64,000 nt of DNA from Flammeovirgaceae bacterium. Lineage in GTDB: Bacteria; Bacteroidota; Bacteroidia; Cytophagales; Cyclobacteriaceae. How positions within the stretch are numbered: the stretch's first letter is position 1; every line of letters begins with the position of its first letter. The stretch is from contig JAIYCV010000042.1 in NCBI GenBank assembly GCA_027487845.1, positions 248,001 through 312,000 of the forward strand, given 5' to 3'. The notes beneath the pieces are model-generated. The model made no database searches, was not told where the DNA came from, and saw nothing but the letters and a program-made list of their open reading frames with translations. The translations under genes were made by a program, and so were the position numbers. Shown piece after piece: positions 25,939 to 32,398 of this stretch.

Positions 25939-26508
25939 CTAGATTGATTCGCCTACCCAAAAAAAACTGCTTAATTCGATTTTAATCTTCCCTGTTTCAA
26001 TTACCAGAAGCTGTTCGGTTAATCCTGCTGTTATTATTTTTACGTTAGGATAAATAGCAAGGCGCGTGCCTTTTGTCAGCCATTTTTCAAAGTTGCCGCT
26101 TCTGATTAAGCTCCACCTATACTGCTCGTGAAAAGCTACCAGATCAATATCCGCGGCAGCTGCTGAAAGCCAGTCAAGATCTGCCTCTTCTGAAACCAAG
26201 ATATTAATTGCTTTATATTTTTTGGATAGGGCAAAATCAAGTCCATCTTGTATCGGCCTTCCGCTCGCTTGAACTATGTGAATGGGCTCTTGATCCACCA
26301 GCTTGTCATACCATAAAACTGAATTCGACAGAATCGCTGCGTCTATCTTTATCCCCCAAGATAATACCTGTTCAATAGCTGCTTCACAAACTATTACCGT
26401 TGGCGACCATTCCAGAAGCTGCTCTATAATTTCGACTGATGTCGCTGCCGTATCTAAAATTAAAAGTGCTGGTTCTTGATTTTCCCTAATTATGTGATGA
26501 CTTGACAT
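25939..26508 (-). CDS. Hypothetical protein, possibly a degenerate thiamine-pyrophosphokinase-like fold
   Basis: TVIVCEAAIEQVLSWGIKIDAAILSNSVLWYD...ASGRPIQDGLDFALSKKYKAINILV resembles the TPK layout but lacks the expected acidic motifs. Confidence 0.35.
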   Translation of the reverse strand: MSSHHIIRENQEPALLILDTAATSVEIIEQLLEWSPTVIVCEAAIEQVLSWGIKIDAAILSNSVLWYDKLVDQEPIHIVQASGRPIQDGLDFALSKKYKAINILVSEEADLDWLSAAAADIDLVAFHEQYRWSLIRSGNFEKWLTKGTRLAIYPNVKIITAGLTEQLLVIETGKIKIELSSFFWVGESI

Positions 26509-27710
26509 TAATCTTCAAAAAAACAAACTGATCCGCCCACCCATGTTTTATCTTTGTTGAATTTTACTCCTATCATCTCCCCACGGCTTAGTCTCGCTAA
26601 ATTGGTTATTAGTCTAGGCCTGGCTTCACCGTCATCCCAAATAAAAAGAAGTCGAAGTTCCGTTTTTACTAACCCATCGGGCGCCTGAATAACGGGTTCA
26701 TAGGTAACCTTTCTTTGCAGCAAATAATTTTCGCGTTCATTGAGCGGAATTGCCTCTAAGTCCTTTTGTGTTAGATTAAAAATAATCCCGGTTCCTGAAA
26801 ATGAAAATAGCGGCTTTAGAACGTAGTGCTCTAAGTCAGCTGGCCAATTTTTATATTCATTTAAAAACTTGCACTCGGGCACATACTTACTTTTAATGAA
26901 TGGCATGGTGTACTTACTTATCCTAAAAAACCAATTGGGATGGCCAACCCATTCAACATCTACGTCTTCCGTCAAACTAAAGTCGATGGTTAAGTCGTCT
27001 CGTTTAAGCAATTCATCAAAAATTACCCGATTGTAAATGCGATGTATCTCGATTTTTCTACCTTCGTTTTTATAAAATAGCTTTCTCCCGTCCCTAATAA
27101 CATCGCCAATATGCACTGGTTTGATTCCACTAATTTCTTGGGTGAGAATAAAATCAATTGCTGTATTTTGAAGGAGCGGATCGATCTCCAACAAAATAAC
27201 ATTTTCAGGTTGATGGTTACCTAAAAGAAATTTCCGAAGAGTCGCTTTGTATTCAGCAGTAGATACTCCGAAGTGGTTATTAAGCGTCTTAAGAACGTCA
27301 TAGTATTCTTTAAACTTATTGCCTAGAAAATCTTGAAACCCGAAGAGTGAAGGGAATCCTTGCATTTCAATCAATTGAGGCTGAAGTTGGCCAGCTTCGT
27401 TTTTTACAATGGCAAAGTCTAAGGCCAAGAAATGCGAATGGTTGGTTTCATTAGGCACATAACAGTTGGCAGGAATAGCCCTCTCTGTAATCTTTTTAAA
27501 ATCCGGCTTCGTAATGAAGTCGATGATTTCGTCAGAAGCTTGAATCAATTTTGTCTTAAAATCGGAAGAGATAAATACAGGTGACTCAGCAACACGAAAG
27601 CGAATATGGAAGTTATAGGATTCGTTCAGGTCTTTAATAAAGGCCTTATATTTCTCTTCAGAAAAGTCTTTATTAAATTGACTACGGATCGTTGCAATCA
27701 TATGATACAC
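26508..27710 (-). CDS. Divergent ATP-grasp-like ligase
   Basis: YVLKPLFSFSGTGIIF (nucleotide-loop-like), LLQRKVTYEPVI, KTELRLLFIWDDGEARPRLITNLARLSRGEMIGVKFNKDKTWVGG; N-terminal LIEMQGFPSLFGFQ. Confidence 0.65.
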   Translation of the reverse strand: MYHMIATIRSQFNKDFSEEKYKAFIKDLNESYNFHIRFRVAESPVFISSDFKTKLIQASDEIIDFITKPDFKKITERAIPANCYVPNETNHSHFLALDFAIVKNEAGQLQPQLIEMQGFPSLFGFQDFLGNKFKEYYDVLKTLNNHFGVSTAEYKATLRKFLLGNHQPENVILLEIDPLLQNTAIDFILTQEISGIKPVHIGDVIRDGRKLFYKNEGRKIEIHRIYNRVIFDELLKRDDLTIDFSLTEDVDVEWVGHPNWFFRISKYTMPFIKSKYVPECKFLNEYKNWPADLEHYVLKPLFSFSGTGIIFNLTQKDLEAIPLNERENYLLQRKVTYEPVIQAPDGLVKTELRLLFIWDDGEARPRLITNLARLSRGEMIGVKFNKDKTWVGGSVCFFED

Positions 27711-28520
27711 CTATTTTGGAATCGCACTTCGTAAAAACGAGGGAATGATTGTTCTGTACGTTAACTTAATTTTGTCGGGCTCATTCACCATCGTTAGCAT
27801 ATGTTCATACTTTTTCTGCCCGTATTTTTCAATAATCAATTTCTTCTTATCCTCCCTTAACAAGTACTTAAACATTCCGTCTGAATCTGTTTCCGGATGA
27901 AACTGCACTCCAATAAATGCCTCATTAAATCGAATGGCCATTACTGCTCGTTCTAAAGAAACAAAGGGTCGTTCCTTTTCTATACATAAAATGTGACCAC
28001 CCCCCGACCAGATCTTTGCTTCATTGGGCTCCAGAATTTGATAATCTCTGGAATCTACAGCATAAATAGGGTCACCTAGCCCGTTAAAGAAAGGCTCATG
28101 ATGGCCAGCTTTGGTTTGGTGAATTGGCATGATGCCAAATGAAGTGCTTTTGCGTTTCGAAACTTTGCCGTAATGATAGTAGCGCGAAAACAGTTGAAAC
28201 GAATGGCAAATTAGAAAAACCATTTTGCGCTTAAACGGATGTTCTGAATTGTAATGAAGTATACTATCCATCAATGCAAAATAGCTTTGCTCCCATTGGG
28301 AACCCTCGCTTGACAACGGGCTACCCGGCCCGCCAGAGGAAATGTAAGCATCAAAGCTCAAGTCTGCCATTTCATTCTTCAGTCGAACTTCAAAGACATG
28401 CGAAACAATGTCGAGATTATTTTCCTGTCTAAATTCATCAATCAATTGATGAATACAGCGCATCCCTTCGTTTGGCTCGCCTTCGTATAGATCTAAAATC
28501 GCAATGCGCATTTTTGGCAA
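27711..28520 (-). CDS. Class-I glutamine amidotransferase-like protein
   Basis: ISSGGPGSP; nucleophile region VFLICHSFQLFSRYY; His/Glu pair GVQFHPETD. Confidence 0.88.
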   Translation of the reverse strand: MPKMRIAILDLYEGEPNEGMRCIHQLIDEFRQENNLDIVSHVFEVRLKNEMADLSFDAYISSGGPGSPLSSEGSQWEQSYFALMDSILHYNSEHPFKRKMVFLICHSFQLFSRYYHYGKVSKRKSTSFGIMPIHQTKAGHHEPFFNGLGDPIYAVDSRDYQILEPNEAKIWSGGGHILCIEKERPFVSLERAVMAIRFNEAFIGVQFHPETDSDGMFKYLLREDKKKLIIEKYGQKKYEHMLTMVNEPDKIKLTYRTIIPSFLRSAIPK

Positions 28521-28543
28521 TGGAGCTTTTAAAATTTTTATGA

Positions 28544-29641
28544 TTATATCCCTACGATAGACTGATCTGTGATGTAATCAACAACCGTTCGTAGATCACC
28601 CGACTGTTTAAAAACTTCCAGTTGCCTGTCGGCACCAGTGCCTTTCTCTAAAATAGTGTGCACATAATTTATTGCCTGCCTGCTTCCCAGTTGATCTACC
28701 ACATCATCGACAAATTCAAGCAGCTCGAGGATCAAAGCACGAGTGTCTACCTCTTCTTGCTTACCAAAATCAATCAGCTTACCATCGAGACCATAGCGCG
28801 AGGCCCGCCATTTATTTTCATTGATTAAGGAACGATTGTACATGATGAACGTCATGTTTTGCATTCTAAGTTTGTATAGCTTCACCACGAGAGCCTGAAA
28901 AATAGCGGTGATTGCCATTGTTTCTTCAACCAGCATCGGTACATCACAAATGCGAAATTCAATCGTATCAAAAAACGGATGTACGCGCACATCCCACCAT
29001 ATCTTTTTTGCATTATCAATGCACTTGGTCTTAATCAATAGGTTAACATAGTTCTTAAAATCGTCCCAATCGTTAAATTCATCCGGCACACCCGTTCGCG
29101 GAAACTTATCGAATACTTTCGTACGAAATGATTTGAACCCCGTGTTGCGGCCTTCCCAAAAAGGAGAATTAGTTGAAAGGGCATACACATGCGGAAGAAA
29201 GTAGCGAACGGTGTTCATGATATGGATCGCCATGTTTTTATCGGCAATGCCTACGTGCACGTGCAATCCAAAAATCAAGTTTGAGCGGGCGGCCTCCTGC
29301 ATCTCTTGAACAATCTCATCATACCGAGGATTAGGAGTTATCAATTGAGTGCTCCAATGAGAAAACGGATGAGTTCCTGCCGCGCCCATTTTTAGCCCTA
29401 AGTCACCAGCCACGCTGCTAATTATCTTCCGCAGCTTTGTTATGTCTTCGCGTGCTTCATCTACATTTCTGCAAATTCCTGTTCCCGCCTCCACCACAGC
29501 CTGGTGCATCTCCGCTTTAACCTGATCTTTGACTATCCGTGAAGCGATCTCGACAATCTTTTGATCGTGTGATTTTAATTCACGCGTAGTAGGGTCAATT
29601 ATCATGTACTCCTCTTCAACACCTAATGTAAATTTTTCCAT
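28544..29641 (-). CDS. Carboxylate-amine ligase, YbdK / GCS2 family
   Basis: MEKFTLGVEEEYMIIDPTTRELKS...EMHQAVVEAGTGIC...GLHVHVGI...DVRVHPFFDTIEFRICDVP. Confidence 0.93.
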   Translation of the reverse strand: MEKFTLGVEEEYMIIDPTTRELKSHDQKIVEIASRIVKDQVKAEMHQAVVEAGTGICRNVDEAREDITKLRKIISSVAGDLGLKMGAAGTHPFSHWSTQLITPNPRYDEIVQEMQEAARSNLIFGLHVHVGIADKNMAIHIMNTVRYFLPHVYALSTNSPFWEGRNTGFKSFRTKVFDKFPRTGVPDEFNDWDDFKNYVNLLIKTKCIDNAKKIWWDVRVHPFFDTIEFRICDVPMLVEETMAITAIFQALVVKLYKLRMQNMTFIMYNRSLINENKWRASRYGLDGKLIDFGKQEEVDTRALILELLEFVDDVVDQLGSRQAINYVHTILEKGTGADRQLEVFKQSGDLRTVVDYITDQSIVGI

Positions 29642-29690
29642 AACTAGTCGATAGTAGTCAAGCCGTAAACAACACTATTTTCAATAACTT

Positions 29691-30719
29691 TTACTTCTTT
29701 TTTGGAGCTGCTTTTTTTGTTTTGCTTTCTGCCGGTTTGGCAACTTTATCCGTGCCGCTGGCTTTTGCAACTTGTGGTTTGGTAACCGCATCAGAAACAA
29801 AAGTCCCCCAGGTAAGGTTGTCCTTTCCTGGTTTCTGTGCTTGGGCTCGCTCCACCGCCATTTTTGCAGCGTGTTCTACTACCCATTCGAAATTTTCCTG
29901 ACCTACCGATTTTACATCTGCATCGGGAGCAGGATTGCAAAAGTCAATCGCGTAGGGAATTCCATTCCGCACCGCCATTTCAACGGTATTAAAATCATAC
30001 CCCAAGGCATTATTTAGCGCAAGCACATCTTTGTGTACTTTCATTAACAGTTTTTCGCTTGCTGGCCCTTTGTTCACTACATAACGTAGATCATGGGGAT
30101 TGCGCGGTTCGTATTGCATGATGCGCACGTGTTTGCGATCTAAGCAATAACACCTAAAGTAATCATCAAAAACAATTTCTTCTTGAAGCATCATTACCAA
30201 CTGATTGGTTTCAGCATATGATTTGAAAAATTCATCTAAGTTGTTAAGCTTATAAACACTTTTCCAGCCTCCGCCAGAATGGGGCTTCATATAGGCTGGC
30301 CAGCCGATGTAATTGAAGATTTTCTCCCAACTAAGTGGGTACTTTAAATTGCTGAACGAGGCGTCAGAAGTGTCTGTTGGCCGCTCATGCGAGGGAAGTA
30401 TAACGGTGTTAGGCACCGCCACCCCAATTTTGACAGCCAGCGCGTTGTTGAAAAACTTTTCATCTGCACTCCACCAGAATGGATTGTTAAGTACCGATGT
30501 TCCATCGATGGCCGCATTTTTTAAATAGGCGCGGTAGAATGGAACATCTTGTGAAATGCGGTCAATAATAACGGCATAATCATCCCCAACTCCCTGCTGA
30601 ACCATGTCTACCATTACGGGTTCGGCCATGATATCTTTCAAGCCCAGTTTGTTAACACGCTCAACAAACGCCTCGGGAAATGAGCGTTCCATGCCATGAA
30701 GTATTCCGATCTTTTTCAT
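29691..30719 (-). CDS. ATP-grasp domain protein with Lys/Ala-rich C-terminal tail
   Basis: WPAYMKPHSGGGWKSVYKL, MMLQEEI, FNTVEMAVRNGIPYAIDFCNPAPDAD; tail PQVAKASGTDKVAKPAESKTKKAAPKKK. Confidence 0.85.
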   Translation of the reverse strand: MKKIGILHGMERSFPEAFVERVNKLGLKDIMAEPVMVDMVQQGVGDDYAVIIDRISQDVPFYRAYLKNAAIDGTSVLNNPFWWSADEKFFNNALAVKIGVAVPNTVILPSHERPTDTSDASFSNLKYPLSWEKIFNYIGWPAYMKPHSGGGWKSVYKLNNLDEFFKSYAETNQLVMMLQEEIVFDDYFRCYCLDRKHVRIMQYEPRNPHDLRYVVNKGPASEKLLMKVHKDVLALNNALGYDFNTVEMAVRNGIPYAIDFCNPAPDADVKSVGQENFEWVVEHAAKMAVERAQAQKPGKDNLTWGTFVSDAVTKPQVAKASGTDKVAKPAESKTKKAAPKKK

Positions 30720-30735
30720 ACGTAGAAATTTAAAT

Positions 30736-31446
30736 TTATTTTATGAGTGACAAATAATGAGGAAACATTTCTCGCCATACTGGCCAATCATGGTTAGCGC
30801 CCTGCCTTACGTCCAGCCAATGGTTAATTCTTTTTGCACGCAGTACCCCCGCCAATTTCTCGTTCGCATCCCAACACATATCATTAGTACCTGTGCCTAA
30901 CACTACATGCAAGTCGTCATAAAATCCATTCTGAGCGTTGGGAATAAAATCGGGTGGATTATTGAAGTAAACATTATCATCATAGTATCCGTCTAGCTGA
31001 TCCCTGATGTCAAAGGCCGCTCCCATATTGAAAATGTATTTCACCACCTCCGGATGCTTGAAGCCGAAATTGGTAGCATGATAACCACCGAAACTACAAC
31101 CTGCAGTGACAACGCGCCCAACGCCAGTTTCCCGCTGTGCTAAAGGAACAAGCTCGTGCAAAAGCATGAGGTCATACCAAATATGATTTTTCACACGATC
31201 AGCGGGATGAATACTTTTATTATACCAACTTGAGGAGTCAATTCCATCTGGACAATAAATCTTCACAAACCCATTATCTAAATACCACGCTGCGCTTTCA
31301 ATCAGCTTAAAATCTTTGTTTTCATAAAATCTTCCCATCGAAGTGGGGAAAAGAATTACGGGATACCCCTGATGACCAAAAGCCAATACTTCGATCTCGC
31401 GACTAAGGTTGGGAGAGTACCAGCGATGCAAATGTTCGTGAGGCAT
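30736..31446 (-). CDS. Esterase family alpha/beta hydrolase
   Basis: Nucleophile elbow TAGCSFGGYHATNFGFKHPEVV; C-terminal GANHDWPVWREMFPHYL supplies the His. Confidence 0.87.
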   Translation of the reverse strand: MPHEHLHRWYSPNLSREIEVLAFGHQGYPVILFPTSMGRFYENKDFKLIESAAWYLDNGFVKIYCPDGIDSSSWYNKSIHPADRVKNHIWYDLMLLHELVPLAQRETGVGRVVTAGCSFGGYHATNFGFKHPEVVKYIFNMGAAFDIRDQLDGYYDDNVYFNNPPDFIPNAQNGFYDDLHVVLGTGTNDMCWDANEKLAGVLRAKRINHWLDVRQGANHDWPVWREMFPHYLSLIK

Positions 31447-31546
31447 GGAATAAAAATTATGACCTTTAAATATTCAGTTATAAGTCATCTGAAAAATATA
31501 ATTTTACACACTTTCAGAATTATTTCAGGAAGCTAAACCAAAAATT

Positions 31547-32398
31547 GTGACGATAAAAGAGTCTGATAAAAATAATTTACTGGAGGAAATAACTTCAAGT
31601 ACTTACTTCTCGGAAAACCTTACGGGGATTTACACGAAGCTGCTCGATAGAAAGGTGGATGTCGAGCTTTTACTACCCGCTGGTTATAAATTTTCTAATA
31701 AAAAATATCCTTTGCTTATTTTAAATGATGGTCAGGACAATAAAGCAGTTCAAGTGCGAGAAACACTGGAGCGACTTTGCGGGGAAAACAGCATCCATGA
31801 AATAATTGTGGCGGCAATTGTGGCAGGCGATAGAATGCAAGAGTATGGCGTTGCCGCGAAGAGCGATTATCAAGGCAGGGGCAGTGTGGCCAAAAACTAC
31901 AGTCGGTATATTACTTCCGAGTTAATACCCTATCTAGCTTATCAATATCCTGTCGATGGATCATGTTCAAAACACGCCATTGCGGGTTATTCATTGGGCG
32001 GACTTTCAGCAATGGATATAGCATGGAACAATCCCGAAGTATTTTCAAAAGCGGGGGTGTTTAGCGGCTCGCTTTGGTGGCGAAAACGCGATACCAACAG
32101 CAGATTTTATTCTGATGATAGAGATCGCTTAATGCACCAACAAATACGCAGGGGAAAATTGAAACCGGGGATGAAGTTTTGGTTTCAAACAGGCACGCAA
32201 GATGAGTGGAGCGACCGCAACAAAAATGGAATTATCGATTCTATTGACGACACACTCGATTTGATTGTAGAACTCACAAAAATTGGCTACCGACCATTTC
32301 ACGACATTCAATACCTGGAAATTAAGGACGGCAAGCATAATCCTGAAACCTGGGCAGAAGCTATGCCCCATTTTTTGACATGGGCTTTTGGCAAATAA
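31547..32398 (+). CDS. Alpha/beta-hydrolase-fold esterase (GTG start)
   Basis: GYSLGGLSAMDIAWNNPEVFSKAGVFSGSLWW; C-terminal DGKHNPETWAEAMPHFLTWAF. Confidence 0.87.
   Translation: MTIKESDKNNLLEEITSSTYFSENLTGIYTKLLDRKVDVELLLPAGYKFSNKKYPLLILNDGQDNKAVQVRETLERLCGENSIHEIIVAAIVAGDRMQEYGVAAKSDYQGRGSVAKNYSRYITSELIPYLAYQYPVDGSCSKHAIAGYSLGGLSAMDIAWNNPEVFSKAGVFSGSLWWRKRDTNSRFYSDDRDRLMHQQIRRGKLKPGMKFWFQTGTQDEWSDRNKNGIIDSIDDTLDLIVELTKIGYRPFHDIQYLEIKDGKHNPETWAEAMPHFLTWAFGK

Follow-up and report, generated by a model that had tools for sequence, protein, structure and literature searches.

The window analysed here, a stretch of 64,000 nucleotides from contig JAIYCV010000042.1 (positions 248,001 to 312,000) in the 4.5-Mb genome of a Flammeovirgaceae bacterium, carries the minus-strand operon EST1-AG1-GCS2-GAT-AG2 (31446 to 26508, in positions of the window), which encodes two ATP-grasp ligases of different kinds, a YbdK-family carboxylate-amine ligase, a class-I glutamine amidotransferase (GATase)-like protein, and a serine hydrolase. 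These genes recur as a set in the same order and are co-inherited, their products have ligase and hydrolase folds or family matches and conserved catalytic-type residues, and AG2 and GAT are replaced by enzymes of the same general type in some lineages. We consider it probable (roughly 0.6) that they form a dedicated, mostly vertically inherited pathway of Bacteroidota, which, independently of ribosomes and nonribosomal peptide synthetases, yields a small metabolite that is peptide-like or a gamma-glutamyl amide. The system is single-copy and co-inherited in about one third of the sampled Bacteroidota genomes, and its product, once found, would reveal a common metabolite of this phylum.

Gene order and co-inheritance in Bacteroidota

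EST1 (30736-31446; 236 amino acids), AG1 (29691-30719; 342 amino acids), GCS2 (28544-29641; 365 amino acids), GAT (27711-28520; 269 amino acids), and AG2 (26508-27710; 400 amino acids) are all encoded on the minus strand, with gaps of 16 bases between EST1 and AG1, 49 between AG1 and GCS2, and 23 between GCS2 and GAT, and GAT and AG2 abut. The last gene of the run, here called the orphan gene (25939-26508, minus strand; 189 amino acids), overlaps AG2 by 1 base. EST2 (31547-32398, plus strand; 283 amino acids) is divergently transcribed. All of these open reading frames lie where a preliminary description of this DNA had placed them, and the tight co-directional packing and the divergent second esterase described there were confirmed.

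The gene series EST1-AG1-GCS2-GAT-AG2, in many cases accompanied by divergent EST2, was repeated in many genera in a first sample of 80 regions from 79 genomes of a single phylum, the Bacteroidota. A second sample came from a scan with AG2 of a GTDB-based collection, which gave at least 594 relatives, the nearest named ones being Cyclobacteriaceae/Cytophagales bacteria; the best 80 loci by similarity were fetched, a ranking that is uninformative on other phyla. Divergent EST2 followed by EST1, AG1, GCS2, GAT, and AG2 was found in full, in the order of the window, at 40 of these best 80 loci, and many of the remaining ones were cut at contig ends or had a partial gene set. Order and orientation are preserved across dozens of Bacteroidota genera.

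Co-inheritance was examined in 299 genomes, all from Bacteroidota, with orthology thresholds set by identity and AG1 matches of ≤43% identity excluded. AG1 was carried by 104 genomes, AG2 by 92, GCS2 orthologues by 93, GAT by 70, and EST1 homologues by 126. AG1 and AG2 were common to 89 genomes (P 8e-56, Fisher, n = 299) and AG1 and GCS2 to 90 (P 6e-57), and EST1 was present in 103 of the 104 AG1 genomes (P 4e-56); EST1 homologues were also found in 23 genomes without AG1, so that EST1 is less specific to the system. Every AG1 genome had a second ligase, either AG2 (89 genomes) or another permuted ATP-grasp directly after AG1 (15 genomes). Because relatedness inflates plain Fisher values, a shuffle within families, which retains broad relatedness, was also run: AG1 and the second ligase agreed in 114 of 115 genomes from the 15 families holding both carriers and non-carriers, and none of 20000 shuffles reached this agreement. 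AG1 lay on a contig apart from AG2 and GCS2 in 17 of the 27 genomes checked, indicating that co-inheritance is not mere adjacency. Co-occurrence beyond the window, on which the preliminary description had made its proposal depend, was thus found both as conserved order and as co-inheritance.

All 70 GAT genomes had AG1 or AG2, 37 of the 92 AG2 genomes had no GAT, and GCS2 was missing from a Saprospiraceae-like family. Since there are lineages in which GCS2 or GAT is absent or replaced, the core consists of AG1, a permuted ATP-grasp, and EST1. The preliminary description had proposed that ligases, GATase, and esterases act as one system; the three ligases, GAT, and EST1 do stand as one co-inherited unit, to which the TPK-like protein does not belong and in which GCS2 and GAT are not universal. 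Spread on plasmids was rejected, because no plasmid record was matched by AG1 or AG2. Isolated AG1 neighbours in genomes with a scattered system (for example a histidine-ammonia-lyase-like gene or an LpxH-like phosphoesterase, named by eye) were judged incidental.

Folds and residues of the ligases and hydrolases

AG1 is predicted to be a canonical ATP-grasp with the fold of D-Ala-D-Ala ligase and LysX, in which nucleotide- and metal-type residues are kept. It matched the NCBIfam model TIGR00768 (rimK_fam) with E 3e-5 and 23.5 bits, under the curated cut-off of 143.4, and Pfam R2K_2 with 13.8 bits, under the gathering score of 26.2; neither AG1 nor AG2 reaches the cut-off of any Pfam ATP-grasp model. 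The AlphaFold model of AG1 (mean pLDDT 82) matched D-Ala-D-Ala ligase in Foldseek (E 5e-14), and also ArgX/LysX and the graspetide ligases PsnB and MdnC. K145, Q179, E180, E247, D259, and N262 were invariant among 39 operon homologues, the roles of ATP-grasp residues in both ligases being assigned by motif, not by superposition. The ATP-grasp call made earlier for AG1 is supported by this fold and these residues. AG1 resembles RimK, LysX-ArgX, and D-Ala-D-Ala ligase in fold and in ATP/metal-type residues, but differs in passing no curated cut-off and in belonging to a locus with no detected LysW-type carrier. Its residues 315-342 (29691-29774, minus strand) form a Lys/Ala/Pro-rich C-terminal tail of low confidence, which varies among relatives. 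At four loci of close relatives EST1 and AG1 are separated by an additional alpha/beta hydrolase gene, which by eye looks proline-iminopeptidase-like.

The RimK/LysX/ArgX kind of AG1, together with its Lys-rich low-confidence tail, would suit modification of a protein or carrier protein, in which AG1 adds residues, the other ligases extend the tag, and GAT and EST1 remove it. On the other side, the gaps hold no conserved small open reading frame fit for a LysW-like or Pup-like carrier, and no Anbu/proteasome-type peptidase was seen among the recurrent neighbours, so that we think such modification unlikely. The match to PsnB and MdnC likewise recalls a graspetide cluster, a kind of ribosomally synthesized and post-translationally modified peptide (RiPP) locus, where AG1 would cross-link a ribosomal precursor peptide. 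This reading is most improbable and was rejected: no conserved small, precursor-like open reading frame was found in the intergenic gaps of 80 loci, and the single-copy, co-inherited distribution is at odds with fast-evolving RiPP loci.

AG2 had been described as a second, divergent ATP-grasp-like protein; the ATP-grasp part of that call stood, and its kind can be refined to a predicted circularly permuted ATP-grasp of the glutathione synthetase/YgiC type. It showed no credible family match in Pfam or NCBIfam and no Pfam ATP-grasp match. In Foldseek, all 15 PDB matches of its AlphaFold model (mean pLDDT 93) with E ≤ 0.001 were permuted ATP-grasps, among them yeast glutathione synthase (1m0w, E 7.6e-14), human and plant glutathione synthetases, GspS, the GspS-like 3n6x (Mfla_0391), YgiC (7uk8), nematode GSS-like proteins, and Cp1B (9cjn). 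The input for folding AG1 and AG2 consisted solely of alignments of the window and the loci fetched by the collection scan. E115, Q117, K299, Q332, E351, and R353 were invariant in 56 sequences. The usual motif of glutathione-synthetase-type permuted ATP-grasps is E-x-N, whereas the alignment of AG2 reads as an invariant E-x-Q. AG2 shares the permuted fold with glutathione synthetase, GspS, YgiC/YjfC, and Cp1B (Foldseek E 1e-10 to 8e-14), but its identity to them is just 10-15%, and it shares its operon with two other ligases. Loss of ATP-binding residues, which the preliminary description would have counted against its proposal, was seen in neither ligase, and both keep invariant ATP-grasp-type residues. 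Comparison of AG1 with AG2 by hhalign gave no support for similarity, as expected since AG2 is permuted. YgiC/YjfC and Cp1B, which have the fold of AG2, make small amides by ligating a small acid or peptide to an amino acid or an amine (PMC12568646). Six genomes with a scattered system have an amidohydrolase-superfamily gene immediately upstream of AG2, and in several of them the two genes overlap.

In each of the 15 genomes with AG1 but no AG2, a PF14403-type permuted ATP-grasp directly followed AG1; hhalign of AG2 against this ligase lent no support to a relationship (probability 1.2), perhaps owing to the small profile of the latter, of only four sequences, and the kind of AG2 was decided by the fold comparison. 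GAT, too, has a stand-in: an M29 aminopeptidase occupies its place in the interval between GCS2 and AG2 at four loci, the genomes of which have no GAT. The distributions of AG2 and the PF14403-type ligase, and those of GAT and M29, are complementary, and if both versions share a product, enzymes of different families have been swapped at a conserved step.

GAT matched PF00117 with 32.9 bits (cut-off 22.8), and C105, H208, and E210 were invariant in 30 of 30 homologues, in agreement with the earlier call of a class-I GATase-like protein with recognisable Cys and His/Glu positions; it is of the amide/gamma-glutamyl hydrolase type. The intact Cys-His-Glu triad, the place of GAT beside AG2, and a weak similarity to GatD (E 0.12) might be taken to mean that GAT is a true glutaminase, which supplies ammonia to a ligase for carboxylate amidation as GatD does with MurT. 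An M29 metallopeptidase stands in for GAT in genomes that have none, and 37 AG2 genomes lack GAT; both facts fit poorly with an obligatory ammonia supply and make this role quite improbable. For dedicated hydrolases from interchangeable families, a part in trimming, release, or recycling would be more plausible than one in supplying ammonia.

GCS2 is a YbdK-type ligase as described earlier: it matched PF04107 (E 5.5e-66), passed the cut-off of the NCBIfam equivalog NF010039 (YbdK, PRK13515; 541 bits, cut-off 371), and matched YbdK in the PDB (1r8g, E 1e-51). It thus resembles other YbdK-type carboxylate-amine ligases, but differs from them in its tie by co-inheritance to AG1 and AG2. EST1 is a PF00756-type alpha/beta serine hydrolase (24.9 bits, over the cut-off), as the esterase call had it, and S118 (in G-C-S-F-G), D189, and H219 are each shared by 90% or more of 31 homologues.

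Proposed pathway and its alternatives

AG1 and AG2 would each use ATP to turn a carboxylate into an acyl phosphate, and couple the activated acid to an amine. GCS2 would add a further amide, probably gamma-glutamyl, in most lineages. GAT, as a putative Cys-His-Glu amidase, or the M29 aminopeptidase in some lineages, together with EST1, may cleave amide or ester bonds, and this cleavage could serve trimming, recycling, or release of the product. In known pathways, linked ligases of this sort form one amide bond after another (PMC4431377). We infer that all the enzymes act toward one small-molecule product, as well as the direction and order of the steps and the gamma-glutamyl chemistry. It is possible, and we propose it tentatively, that the product is a previously unknown, widely shared peptide-type metabolite or cofactor of Bacteroidota, made by a canonical ATP-grasp and a ligase of the glutathione synthetase fold, with parts exchanged among lineages and the product kept.

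Several points weigh against an amide-ligation pathway of this kind. The Saprospiraceae-like family does without GCS2, so that a gamma-glutamyl step is not universal. The fold of AG1 is also found in ATP-grasps that modify proteins, as RimK does, or carrier proteins, as LysX does. The M29 and PF14403-type replacements are known from a minority of genomes, the searched genomes belong to a single phylum in which relatedness raises the plain Fisher values, and the substrates of the enzymes here are putative.

The pairing of a carboxylate-amine ligase with a class-I GATase-like hydrolase reminds us of PuuA and PuuD, which constitute the gamma-glutamylation route for putrescine. By analogy, GCS2 or an ATP-grasp would glutamylate an amine for utilisation or detoxification, and GAT would later strip the glutamyl group. 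The intact triad of GAT beside GCS2 is consistent with this, and a sodium/solute symporter (TIGR00813, E 1.6e-37, under the cut-off), fused in frame to AG2 in one genome and directly upstream of it in another, suggests a transported substrate. However, two to three ligases exceed the need of glutamylation, the operon differs from that of PuuA-PuuD in its ligase folds, and the neighbourhoods showed no recurrent dehydrogenase, aminotransferase, or oxidase; the inseparable pair, moreover, is AG1 and the second ligase, not GCS2 and GAT. We therefore regard amine metabolism as rather unlikely.

The folds of GCS2 and AG2 are also those of glutathione-synthesis enzymes. In a route to a glutathione-like thiol cofactor, GCS2 would form gamma-glutamyl-cysteine, AG2 would act as glutathione synthetase, and EST1 and EST2 would hydrolyse S-acylthiols, in line with a weak match of EST2 to the S-formylglutathione hydrolase model (TIGR02821, E 2e-6, far under the cut-off). 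The bacillithiol enzyme BshC (PF10079), however, was present in 294 of the 299 genomes, that of the window included, and bacillithiol synthesis looks near-universal in the phylum; carriers are therefore not short of thiol and do not need the system as their sole source. AG1 is left unexplained, and GCS2 is missing in some carriers. A thiol cofactor is improbable, and replacement of a missing thiol was rejected, since near-universal BshC fails to explain the distribution. Antiphage defence was rejected as well, none of the seven proteins matching a PADLOC model, and the RiPP, defence, and thiol-replacement readings are all disfavoured.

Multi-ligase clusters are known in kind. The amidoligase survey of Iyer and colleagues from 2009 reportedly predicted pathways with several ATP-grasp- or GCS2-type ligases and peptidases, which is the likeness of those neighbourhoods to the present operon. 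Our literature search, which did not extend to that survey, found neither a description of this gene set nor a characterised pathway with it, the latter being a finding that the preliminary description would have held against its proposal; a term search of the R2K and graspetide papers turned up no reference to the set. The novelty of the exact layout is provisional.

Flanking genes

EST2 has a clear PF00756 match (102.5 bits, over the cut-off) and is a conserved neighbour, whose membership of the core is uncertain.

The orphan gene was called TPK-like and counted as part of the system in the preliminary description, but it has no Pfam or NCBIfam match, TPK models included. Its homologues were found at six loci of close relatives, solely beside AG2, with 36-43% identity. 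It is fast-evolving, with an N-terminal motif, SSHHxVRExQEPAL, conserved in close relatives. It is a lineage-specific gene outside the conserved system.

No RNA elements or tRNAs were found in the window. Beyond EST2, a tandem pair of Uma2-family genes (PF05685; 32417-32950 and 32954-33490, plus strand) shows almost identical stretches in the C-terminal halves, which suggests recent duplication or gene conversion.

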